From the NCBI GenBank assembly GCA_937890045.1, contig CALBXV010000110.1, positions 1 through 9,720 of the forward strand: 9,720 nucleotides of DNA, in the 5' to 3' direction. Of this stretch, positions 7,933-9,720 are shown piece by piece. The notes beneath the pieces were generated by a model that was given only the letters and a program-made list of their open reading frames with translations, searched no databases and was not told where the DNA came from. Position 1 is the first letter of the stretch, and each line of letters opens with the position of its first letter. Source of the DNA: an uncultured archaeon (lineage in GTDB: Archaea; Thermoproteota; Nitrososphaeria; Nitrososphaerales; CALBXV01). The position numbers were made by a program, and so were the translations under genes.

Positions 7933-8326
7933 TTTTATTGTCTCCTGTTTCAAAGAATCCCCATTTACCATAAAATATACGATTCGCATCAGGCATAGCT
8001 ACATAATGTCCACAGGTTGACTTAGAAGACAGATATTCACCAGTTGAAACTGGACTAACACCTTTAGCTGTATACAAAGTAATATGAAGAGGTGTTTTCA
8101 TGTCAAACTGTTTATCCAAAACTACTCGCGAGGATACTTCTGGCACCTCAATCCTTATTTCACAACGTAATACACCAAAACCAGATTGTATTATAACTTC
8201 TCTAATTTCTACCATAGCACTATCTCCATCTTCTACTCCATGAGGAAAGACAGGACCATCAATGGGATTATAATCAAAGGTCATATGTAGACCTGAATCA
8301 AAAAATACTCCCGAGTATATTTTCAT
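7919..8326 (-). CDS. Putative 2H phosphoesterase (two HxT motifs)
   Basis: 135 aa. Two His-x-Thr motifs are visible: H14-M-T16 in SGLHMTFDY near the N-terminus and H81-I-T83 in KTPLHITLYT, followed by AKGVSPVSTGEYL. Two HxT motifs about 65-90 residues apart define the 2H phosphoesterase superfamily (LigT/2'-5' RNA ligase-like, AKAP7-like, tRNA-repair CPDases, and phage Acb1). These enzymes cleave 2'-3' or 3'-5' nucleotide phosphodiesters. Size and spacing fit small phage members, including the anti-CBASS nuclease Acb1. The linked polynucleotide-kinase-like gene makes RNA end repair another candidate role. The gene starts in an ATGA overlap, with an RBS inside the zinc-finger gene. Superfamily call moderate; substrate unknown. 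Confidence 0.62.
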   Translation of the reverse strand: MKIYSGVFFDSGLHMTFDYNPIDGPVFPHGVEDGDSAMVEIREVIIQSGFGVLRCEIRIEVPEVSSRVVLDKQFDMKTPLHITLYTAKGVSPVSTGEYLSSKSTCGHYVAMPDANRIFYGKWGFFETGDNKNANR

Positions 8327-8339
8327 ATCTGTTCTCCTT
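8317..8339 (-). repeat. 23-bp direct repeat, copy 2 (translation initiation region)
   Basis: Exact copy of 7162-7184, covering the RBS and first codons of the 2H phosphoesterase gene. The coding sequences diverge directly after it. Confidence 0.85.
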
Positions 8340-8484
8340 TATTTATAAGTTTCTTTGCTATCCAATGTATGTAACAGAGCTGTGGTGGATACTTCTTTCT
8401 TGCAATAAGATTCAATTTAATGTTTTTACCACATATTCTACACTTGTACTTAGACGATAATTTAGTATAATGATATTTTTTCAT
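8323..8484 (-). CDS. 53-aa basic C2-CH zinc-finger protein
   Basis: ATG at 8484 in an ATGA overlap with the upstream gene and preceded by a very strong GGAGGTGA RBS; it ends at 8323. C15-x2-C18 (CRICG) and C37-x2-H40 (CYIH) form a plausible single zinc site (CxxC...CxxH). The protein is rich in Lys and Arg, so nucleic-acid binding is likely. It lies directly between a basic peptide and the 2H phosphoesterase. Its last codons contain the RBS of the next gene. Confidence 0.72.
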   Translation of the reverse strand: MKKYHYTKLSSKYKCRICGKNIKLNLIARKKYPPQLCYIHWIAKKLINKGEQI

Positions 8485-8642
8485 GTATTTGAAAATTCAC
8501 CTCCTTCTAGGTGTTTTGCTTTGCGTAATTCATCTCTTATCTTACGTTTCTTAATTTGAGATGCTGTTCGACCATGCTTAGACAAGTCGTTATTCTTCTC
8601 ACGTCTATCCTGTTTTCTGCGTTTAGCTCTCTTATTAGGCAT
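8481..8642 (-). CDS. 53-aa highly basic protein
   Basis: ATG at 8642 shares its A with the TAA stop of the kinase-like gene (TAATG) and follows GAGGTGGTG. The product, beginning MPNKRAKRRKQDRREKNN, has about a third Lys+Arg and no cysteine, and is probably helical or disordered. Such a charge suggests binding to RNA or DNA. The stop at 8481 overlaps the next ATG. Family not recognised. The coupling to a kinase upstream and a zinc finger downstream suggests a shared nucleic-acid task. Confidence 0.7.
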   Translation of the reverse strand: MPNKRAKRRKQDRREKNNDLSKHGRTASQIKKRKIRDELRKAKHLEGGEFSNT

Positions 8643-9088
8643 TATAACACCACCTCAAATCGTTGTTTCATCGCTTTAACTTTTCTAGGATCAACACCAT
8701 GAATATTCATACCACCATGTCTATTCTCAACAATGACTGAAAAGAGAAACCAGTTATATTTATCTTTAAGATCATGGTAAGGTTTCATATCAGGATCATA
8801 TACTGAAAATGTATTATGAATAAATATCTTAGTTGTTATCTTATTCATCATCCATTCTTCAACCTGAGCCTGACATGCTTCATGATTTGTTTTAAGGAGA
8901 TTGCCATCCCATTCATAATCTCCATCACTGTTATAAAAATAATCATCAGTTGCTATTGATACAGAGCAGTGTGGTTGTATTGCCATATTATCAGCAAGTA
9001 TCTGCTCTACAAATGATGTCTTACCAGCACCTGGTACACCACGAATAAGAAATAAAGCACCATTCTTTGTCTGGCTATATAATTTCAT
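8642..9088 (-). CDS. P-loop kinase-like protein (AAA_33 / NEDD4BP2L-type)
   Basis: 148 aa. Walker A GVPGAGKTS at residues 17-25. Then ATDDYF (46-51), DGDYEWDG..L, NHEACQAQVEEWM, KIFIHNTFSVYDPDMKPY (the family's V-D/H-NTF..W-E-PY segment) and IHGVDPRKVKAMKQRFE at the C-terminus. This order is that of NEDD4-binding-protein-2-like / polynucleotide-kinase-like P-loop ATPases, frequent in phages. Expected chemistry is ATP-dependent phosphoryl transfer, possibly to a 5'-OH of RNA or DNA, but there is no separate phosphatase domain. AGGAG lies 9 nt before the ATG at 9088. It sits near the 2H phosphoesterase gene, a pairing also seen in RNA-repair systems. Confidence 0.82.
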   Translation of the reverse strand: MKLYSQTKNGALFLIRGVPGAGKTSFVEQILADNMAIQPHCSVSIATDDYFYNSDGDYEWDGNLLKTNHEACQAQVEEWMMNKITTKIFIHNTFSVYDPDMKPYHDLKDKYNWFLFSVIVENRHGGMNIHGVDPRKVKAMKQRFEVVL

Positions 9089-9216
9089 GACTGTTTTCTC
9101 CTTCTCCTTATTCTATCCATAGCAACACATAATCTCTTCCATGATTTAGATGCATTCTTGGTAGAACCATACTTTCTCTTATATTCAGCACGATATTTAA
9201 TTTCATCTATTTTCAT
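9085..9216 (-). CDS. 43-aa basic peptide
   Basis: ATG at 9216 follows an AAAGGAA RBS and the frame closes in an ATGA overlap with the kinase-like gene at 9088. The product, starting MKIDEIKYRAEYKRKYG, has an acidic-basic helix and ends RIRRRRKQS. It is the first protein gene after the large structured RNA, 25 nt from it. Function unknown; the charge suggests RNA or DNA binding. Confidence 0.65.
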   Translation of the reverse strand: MKIDEIKYRAEYKRKYGSTKNASKSWKRLCVAMDRIRRRRKQS

Positions 9217-9240
9217 AACATTCCTTTCTGTTTAATAATT

Positions 9241-9719
9241 TAAAAGAGTGTGTGACGGGATTCAAGAGATGCTTTAACAAAGCACCGGGTTACCCGCTAG
9301 TAACGACTATTTTAGGGACTTTCGTCCTCACGATATAGTATTAGATACCTGTCAGTATCATCCTGATGACTGATCTTTAGGACCATTGTCACATATAAGA
9401 TGATGTACAACACAACTAATACTTCACAGCTTGAGATAGCAAACTCATTAACCTGTGAGAATACCGTAGCAAGAGGTTCTTGCTTTAGGTTGCTGTCACT
9501 ACGATTACTAGAGAAGTTACTCTCCTTCCTCATGCAACAGGTCTCCGAAGAAACCTGTCACTCCCATTTGGTTAGAGGGCACCCATCGGTGCAGTACTCT
9601 ACCTGTAATACCCTTGCCAAAGAATATCTACAGGTTTCACAAACCCAGTAGCGATAGTAAATCGCGTAGCCACCATCAATCCTGACAATGCACCGTCAGA
9701 ACATCAAGTCACTCTTTTA
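9241..9719 (-). ncRNA. Large highly structured RNA, ROOL/GOLLD-like candidate
   Basis: A 479-nt block with no credible gene, closed by a 10-bp helix (9241-9250 with 9710-9719). Minus-strand RNA folds in order: 7-bp hairpin 9680-9701 (one U.G); 5-bp 9651-9665; 15-bp hairpin 9601-9635 (7+8 bp, bulged G, two G.U); hairpin 9579-9592; 9-bp hairpin 9537-9558 with a C(UUCG)G tetraloop; 9468-9484 (6 bp); 9424-9458 (6+4 bp); 9386-9410 (8 bp, one bulge); and 9316-9327 with a GAAA tetraloop inside an ACTAT/ATAGT helix (9306-9310 with 9335-9339); 9270-9284. UUCG and GAAA loops and most G.U pairs exist only on the minus strand. A loop at 9474-9478 (AACCU) can pair with AGGUU at 9450-9454. Large ornate phage RNAs known to me are ROOL and GOLLD; I cannot confirm membership. 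Confidence 0.8.
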
Positions 9720-9720
9720 G

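Follow-up and report, generated by a model that had tools for sequence, protein, structure and literature searches.

A new family of large structured phage RNAs at a locus where relatives carry divergent GOLLD RNAs

Genes for the large RNAs GOLLD and ROOL are often located near tRNA genes, a usual though not strict arrangement, and structures of both RNAs have been solved; to our knowledge, neither has a known function. As described in PMC12286853, GOLLD consists of a conserved 3' region and a variable 5' region, many of its members exceed 800 nt, and it forms a closed 14-mer RNA cage. According to the same source, the cages of GOLLD and ROOL are held by kissing loops and A-minor contacts, the ROOL of solved structure has 659 nt, and OLE RNA, a large ornate RNA of bacteria, is a homo-oligomer (PMC12286853). 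For Vibrio phage ICP1, a phage without tRNAs, another report describes an abundant ncRNA of ~800 nt from an ORF-less space (PMC7567579). At the level of titles and abstract openings, the literature on GOLLD and ROOL, on phage structured RNAs and on large ornate RNAs contained no description of the RNA presented here or of its exchange with GOLLD.

The stretch of DNA analyzed here (the window, 9,720 nt) forms part of a 42,660-base virus record in which this RNA was matched once. When 1,721 of the 9,720 bases were compared with the stored record, a one-base difference was seen at position 197 (G on the window plus strand). A sequence-only reading of the window had proposed a complete minus-strand RNA of ~480 nt at 9241..9719, and a single discrete structured RNA is indeed found there, closed by a stem of 9 bp (P1) that pairs 9718-9710 with 9250-9242. 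Two homologues were identified, in loci L042 (aligned stretch 406 nt) and L086 (410 nt). The terminase-like protein served as anchor (best 80 of 595 relatives, 74-86% identity), and BLAST of 27 syntenic regions of terminase relatives revealed an RNA homologue in one of them, L042; the L086 RNA was found among viral contigs by exact patterns made from shared letters, which also matched L085 on the same contig as L042. Pairwise BLAST between the three RNAs gave 63-73% identity over 192-417 nt, L042 and L086 being the closer pair. The Sak-like protein was also used as anchor (best 80 of 597 relatives), and the resulting census represents the best-matching part of the phage group, in which many contigs are too short for the locus. 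The downstream ATPase as anchor led to one distant relative, L004, where the sequence profile of the three RNAs found no RNA.

Neither this profile, run over 180 loci, nor covariance model R1, which spans the core of the P10 domain and was run over 83 loci, 81 loci and 43 whole records, detected a fourth member. At E up to 1, R1 matched 4 of the 43 records, the three members at 166-179 bits and a fourth record at 10 bits, which was treated as noise, as were two such matches from the searches of the 83 and 81 loci. Other candidates from pattern matching were rejected: the match in L087 sits inside an open coding frame, L088-L101 (14 of the 16 stretches from one pattern scan) had no BLAST match to the three RNAs, and L102 gave nothing by profile or R1. 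Two pattern scans of genome contigs returned 0 and 5 stretches, none of the five being matched by R1, and an exact pattern of the UUCG hairpin peculiar to the window phage had no match among viral contigs. In a phage collection, no BLAST match was obtained for the RNA of the window phage or of L086; with a longer window-phage stretch as query, the one match covered 44 bases in a gokushovirus and lay outside the RNA.

The comparative fold of the three-sequence alignment is a multibranch structure of 121 pairs in 20 helices within one closing stem; the sequence-only reading had counted at least ten local helices inside a closing stem of 10 bp. Standard pairs make up 96.1% of the 359 cells of this 121-pair structure over the three sequences, and the covariation whose lack in homologues would have spoken against the earlier proposal is present, with two-sided changes at 34 of the 121 pairs as counted on the same alignment. 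None of 500 shuffles matched the real alignment on any of five pairing measures, and in controls with pairing partners slid by 1-3 columns 35-47% of cells were paired and only 2-5 pairs showed two-sided changes. Because the structure was taken from the alignment on which it is counted, a leave-one-out test was done, in which the structure derived from two members paired 82.8% (window phage), 92.7% (L042) and 93.3% (L086) of the cells of the third, as compared with 33-49% in slid controls; this partly removes the circularity of the covariation count. Agreement was lower for single-sequence folds. The fold of L042 holds at 95 of 121 scorable pairs in the window phage and 107 of 123 in L086, and that of L086 at 109 of 134 in the window phage and 113 of 130 in L042; the best fold of the window-phage sequence differs from the consensus and agrees poorly with the other two, holding at 81 of 120 scorable pairs in L042 and 79 of 124 in L086. 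Taken together, a new RNA family of three members is well supported.

Coordinates of the RNA, its parts and the RNAs at the same locus in relatives are given in Table 1. The alignment of the three sequences shows three extra segments of 22-27 nt each in the window-phage RNA, one of them with the UUCG hairpin. Both stable tetraloops noted from the sequence exist; the GAAA loop (hairpin 9327-9316) is present in all three members, and the cUUCGg hairpin (9537-9559) does not belong to the conserved family. In P3, two-sided changes are seen at 5 of the 8 stem pairs and the loop UGCAU is kept; in L042 and L086 the loop reads AUGCAU, which is self-complementary.

Table 1. Coordinates of the new RNA, its parts and neighboring or alternative features (window positions unless a locus is named).
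Feature	Position	Strand	Remarks
Whole RNA ("class A")	9242..9718	-	477 nt with both arms of the closing stem included; homologues at L042:6076-6481(-) and L086:668-1077(+)
P1 closing stem, 5' arm (AAAAGAGUG)	9710..9718	-	9 pairs, 2 of them with two-sided changes; pairing in 96% of cells
P1 closing stem, 3' arm (CACUCUUUU)	9242..9250	-	Comparative structure
P3 hairpin	9679..9702	-	Loop UGCAU in all three members
Insert in window phage only	9643..9668	-	Gap in L042 and L086
P5/P6 hairpin domain, at invariant UUGUGAAACCUGU	9601..9635	-	Alignment and comparative structure
P7 domain (P7, P8, P9)	9503..9599	-	P7: two-sided changes at 4 of 7 pairs
cUUCGg hairpin, within an insert in window phage only	9537..9559	-	Gap in both homologues
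P10 domain containing P11-P19	9299..9500	-	Pairs changed on both sides: P15 4 of 8, P17 6 of 13
P19 hairpin, GAAA loop identical in all three members	9316..9327	-	GGAC-GAAA-GUCC in window phage, GGUC-GAAA-GACC in relatives
P20 hairpin	9255..9297	-	Loop 22 nt longer in window phage, small extra hairpin possible
Downstream 43-aa ORF	9088..9216	-	Starts 25 nt past the RNA; without a relative next to the RNA in L042 or L086
Divergent GOLLD	L112:6699-7146		113.9 bits, E 6.4e-31
Divergent GOLLD	L028:5018-5462		141.2 bits
Divergent GOLLD	L009:3813-4248		120.8 bits
Divergent GOLLD	L104:6263-6680		114.7 bits
Third structured RNA	L031 ~5819-6082	-	~230 nt; also in L013, L016, L019 and L109

The folding energy of window 9230-9720 was -162 kcal/mol (z -5.1) for the minus strand and -129.6 kcal/mol (z -3.8) for the plus strand, and in each case none of 100 shuffles was as low. 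With the alignment fold compared to 200 column shuffles, z reached -14.6 on the RNA strand and -8.5 on the opposite strand, a value far from zero, as inverted repeats would lead one to expect. As the sequence-only reading had suggested, G-U pairs are placed for the minus strand, the consensus holding 50 G-U and 0 A-C cells, a bias that a fold picked for one strand in itself favors. From the z difference together with the G-U bias, the strand was assigned. The folding of the opposite strand, and a location near the boundary of divergently transcribed modules, a usual site of origins, would both fit an element acting at the DNA level, such as a replication origin or a packaging site rich in inverted repeats. 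However, the score is far better on one strand, and the one-sided G-U changes behind the 50-to-0 count are of no use to DNA hairpins; we regard such an element as very improbable, and a DNA-only origin was set aside on the grounds of the strand-specific G-U cells and z scores.

The block was also evaluated for coding potential. The longest stop-to-stop frames have 93 aa in the window phage, 71 aa in L042 and 62 aa in L086, and therefore the 73-aa and 83-aa ORFs of the window phage are not kept whole in the homologues. In tblastn, these two ORFs, which lie on opposite strands, gave only short matches to L086 (26 + 14 aa, E 3e-4, and 23 + 18 aa, E 5e-5), as expected of a conserved RNA. No reading frame is kept open across the three members, for which reason a protein-coding block was rejected, in agreement with the earlier judgment that the block is noncoding, against which a frame conserved across it would have counted. 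The argument that its ORFs lack a ribosome-binding site did not hold entirely, as GGAG is found 9 nt ahead of the ATG of the 73-aa ORF, within the UUCG hairpin of the window phage.

Known RNA families were searched for next to and within the RNA. Rfam at E up to 5 gave two chance-level matches in the window, both outside the RNA, and ARAGORN found 0 tRNAs in the window; likewise 0 tRNAs were found in 11 loci, among them three GOLLD carriers. Every match to tmRNA, tRNA or other Rfam RNAs was far below the family cut-off, and the best sub-threshold names for the three RNAs, mcrA (E 0.097, L042), manA (E 0.29, L086) and sau-27 (E 8.4, window phage), were all rejected as chance-level. There was no sign of an interrupted gene, and an intron, searched for with Rfam, was set aside for that reason. 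The Rfam search proposed along with the sequence-only reading has thus given no match above chance, GOLLD and ROOL included. In short permissive searches at E up to 10, neither the GOLLD model (RF02032) nor the ROOL model (RF03087) matched the RNAs of the window phage, L042 or L086. At E up to 0.1, the GOLLD model gave no match in these three records while matching 8 of 43 records, and the ROOL model matched 0 of the 43, the window phage among them, in a search where control genomes were likewise without a match.

The corresponding interval of other relatives contains a conserved region 0.87-1.18 kb long, termed here the GOLLD-type region. It was at first a candidate for a new RNA and was dropped as such when its 3' half proved to be GOLLD in a permissive search with Rfam. 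Besides the loci of Table 1, the records L014 and L017 also contain divergent GOLLD. The Rfam cut-off for GOLLD is 150 bits and all GOLLDs of these relatives lie below it, at 106-141 bits, and a search of L009, L014 and L028 at gathering thresholds gave no match. None of the 8 matching records among the 43 exceeds the cut-off (three of the eight share one identical match of 141.2 bits), and 0 of 14 control genomes matched. The new RNA is found in 3 of the 43 records and sub-threshold GOLLD in 8, with an overlap of 0.

Syntenic intervals were compared at 22 loci, namely the 26 loci with both flanking markers, minus six dropped as near-copies or as lying on the same contig (L015, L027, L029, L085, L110, L113), plus the window-phage and L086 loci. 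By sequence profile, 3 intervals hold the new RNA, 8 the GOLLD-type region, 5 a third structured RNA and 6 none of these, and in 0 of the 22 do two RNA types occur together. For 6 of the 8 GOLLD-type intervals the assignment was confirmed by the GOLLD model; L111 and L020, the latter without a listed match to that model, were assigned by sequence profile alone. The third RNA was evaluated in an 820-column alignment of four relatives, three of which also have a short ORF in it, and this alignment gave z -8.0 as compared with -3.0 on the other strand; on L031, Rfam returned only two chance-level matches. A low-z stretch in L011, one of the six intervals in the last group, was dropped as a candidate RNA, its only counterpart being the copy in L106 from the same group, identical where compared.

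These results bear on whether the new RNA might be a true but very divergent member of GOLLD or ROOL that is missed by the Rfam models. Its locus is that of GOLLD, its length is near the 416 positions of the GOLLD model, and the GOLLDs of the relatives are already below the cut-off (106-141 vs 150 bits). The permissive searches of the three members, which reached E of 10, and the searches of the window-phage record at E up to 0.1, for ROOL without matching control genomes, argue otherwise, as does the architecture, in which one closing stem surrounds a multibranch fold whereas the GOLLD model has no stem closing the whole. Model R2, built from a 5' part of the relatives' GOLLD region, was likewise without a match in the records of the three class A members when run at E up to 1. 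Membership in either family is therefore judged improbable. The sequence-only reading had left a choice between a variant and a new class; a new class of the GOLLD and ROOL kind is what stands, and the link to GOLLD is positional only.

A tree was built from one neighboring protein for 18 of the 22 rows, the other four being without the marker. A branch supported at 90/88 sets the three phages with the new RNA, two of which sit on long branches, apart from the other side of the tree, where GOLLD and the third RNA are intermixed. The tree needs 5 changes for GOLLD and 3 for the third RNA, of which well-supported branches force 2 and 1. With all carriers on one side of the 90/88 branch, one exchange suffices to explain the new RNA, and the tree does not compel the view that the RNAs have equal function.

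The gene neighborhood differs among the three carriers. Two genes of 45 and 254 aa precede the RNA in L086 ([45 aa][254 aa]-RNA) and follow it in L042 (RNA-[45 aa][254 aa]), with 83% identity between the 45-aa products (over 36 aa) and 84% between the 254-aa products; in the window-phage DNA compared, neither gene is present, and the 43-aa ORF downstream of its RNA has no relative in L042 or L086. Since this two-gene block precedes the RNA in one phage and follows it in another, the RNA behaves as a stand-alone cassette, and across the three phages it shows no fixed association with one downstream gene family. This arrangement has to be weighed against the idea that the RNA is a cis-acting 5' leader that controls the genes immediately behind it at the level of translation or antitermination. 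Each of the three phages has a start codon close behind the RNA on the same strand (25 nt in the window phage), and a scan of the window phage, the one phage scanned, revealed no terminator-like site directly after the RNA; both would suit a leader. Yet the next genes differ among the phages, the two-gene block comes before the RNA in L086, and a conserved multidomain structure of >400 nt is large for a leader, which we therefore consider unlikely. Antitermination by the RNA across the entire operon stays conceivable.

Downstream, the RNA strand encodes a Sak-like annealing protein and a PD-(D/E)XK nuclease. Upstream, past the window end, an ORF-poor stretch of ~1.1 kb (L002 7742-8852) ends at a 120-aa ORF, itself preceded by AAAGGAGG, and the genes beyond, including the terminase-like gene, run in the opposite direction. 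Within it, L002 7990-8850 showed strong local folding in 200-base windows (z to -5.5 on the RNA strand and -6.4 on the other, ~8301-8500) and may represent a separate RNA or belong to a longer one; BLAST of L002 7950-8798 against the other 21 intervals gave no match. A motif resembling ATAACATGGGGATAAAC ahead of the RNA region (L002 7977-7993) is conserved in 12 aligned relatives and is possibly a promoter or origin element, and in several relatives it is preceded by TGTGGATAA or TGTGTATAA, which resemble DnaA boxes. By eye, the window phage, L042 and L086 each have a separate short hairpin shortly upstream of the closing stem, with unrelated sequences and no T-run, a possible candidate for a processing signal. 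Also by eye, the other two carriers share a short element (GCATCC...GCATTAG; L042 ~7030-6960 on the minus strand, L189 ~4390-4480) that comes after small genes on the same strand. At the other end of the window, between two genes, positions 61-330 of the minus strand form a second noncoding foldable stretch that comprises two domains with long stems and had no BLAST match among the loci compared; its z is -2.6, and 4 of 200 shuffles folded at least as well. The phage group is probably marine, as several terminase relatives are Tara Oceans entries; the window-phage record itself bears no direct sign of its habitat.

With moderate confidence, we interpret positions 9242-9718 of the minus strand as a stand-alone, trans-acting large RNA of a new family that most likely does the job of GOLLD, probably via self-assembly; this confidence overlaps with that given to a divergent GOLLD member and to an RNA of other function, since these alternatives also assume a stand-alone RNA. 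The RNA shares its strand with the recombination and replication-side genes, and in the window phage no terminator-like site follows it, so that it is probably co-transcribed with them, and, the next start codon being 25 nt on, it would presumably be cut from the longer operon transcript by processing beside the closing stem. It would be made during infection and work as a folded object, probably assembling with its own copies through the conserved P3 loop. We infer that the RNA is processed from an operon, acts in trans, has its job in common with GOLLD and assembles through P3. The loops of P3 and P19 would suit self-contact and docking, and P3 is a putative kissing loop; palindromes as long as that of its loop are not rare by chance, and self-assembly accordingly stays tentative, in our estimate clearly less than an even prospect. 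Counting against the interpretation are the number of members (three only), the z of -8.5 on the opposite strand, the poor agreement of the window-phage fold, the shorter length in comparison with GOLLD, the lack of detected similarity to it and the lack of nearby tRNAs; the end of the RNA shortly before a start codon in all three phages would suit a leader too.

The locus shared with GOLLD makes a shared job the most economical reading, one in which the same task would be carried out there by large RNAs unrelated to each other. All support for a stand-alone RNA would apply equally to a trans-acting RNA whose function depends on proteins, for example as a scaffold or decoy for a host factor, and is unrelated to the role of GOLLD; the locus may merely tolerate RNA cargo, and the third RNA sits there too. 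Nothing speaks directly against such a function, although a shared role explains the repeated use of the locus better, if weakly, and we hold it to be possible but somewhat unlikely. Returning to the preferred interpretation of a stand-alone RNA doing the job of GOLLD, a bolder version, about which we are rather doubtful, would make it a further phage family of RNA-only homo-oligomers that kiss through their P3 loops and stand in for GOLLD at one locus, with phages swapping unrelated large RNAs as interchangeable parts. If this were true, large RNAs would be exchanged in phages like unrelated lysis or anti-defense proteins. GOLLD, the new RNA and the third RNA at one locus in related phages provide a natural comparison, and the role of these RNAs should be one that phages with the same neighboring genes have in common. 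The new RNA is smaller and easier to study, and the Rfam cut-off is shown to miss divergent GOLLD.

Compared with the known systems, OLE is similar as a large ornate RNA, homo-oligomerization being a described feature of OLE (PMC12286853); it differs in being bacterial, and the new RNA has no Rfam match. The ICP1 ncRNA is likewise a large phage RNA, with high expression, an ORF-less space and the absence of tRNAs as features on the ICP1 side (PMC7567579); it is longer and from another phage, and it is likened here by description and not by sequence or structure. ROOL (RF03087) resembles the new RNA in being a phage RNA that is rich in helices and several hundred nt long, whereas the new RNA is shorter, has no tRNA island and has no match to the ROOL model (43 records, in a search that also left control genomes unmatched). 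From GOLLD (RF02032), the new RNA differs in having no covariance-model match, so that the link is one of position and not of sequence homology, in having no adjoining tRNA, and in being about half as long as the GOLLD-type region of the relatives (0.87-1.18 kb). In place of the layout of a conserved 3' and a variable 5' region exceeding 800 nt, it has 477 nt, with homologous stretches of 406 and 410 nt, and one closing stem, whereas GOLLD is described as having separate 5' and 3' domains (PMC12286853). Like GOLLD, it is a large ornate phage RNA, and it shares both strand and locus with the GOLLD RNAs in relatives of the window phage.
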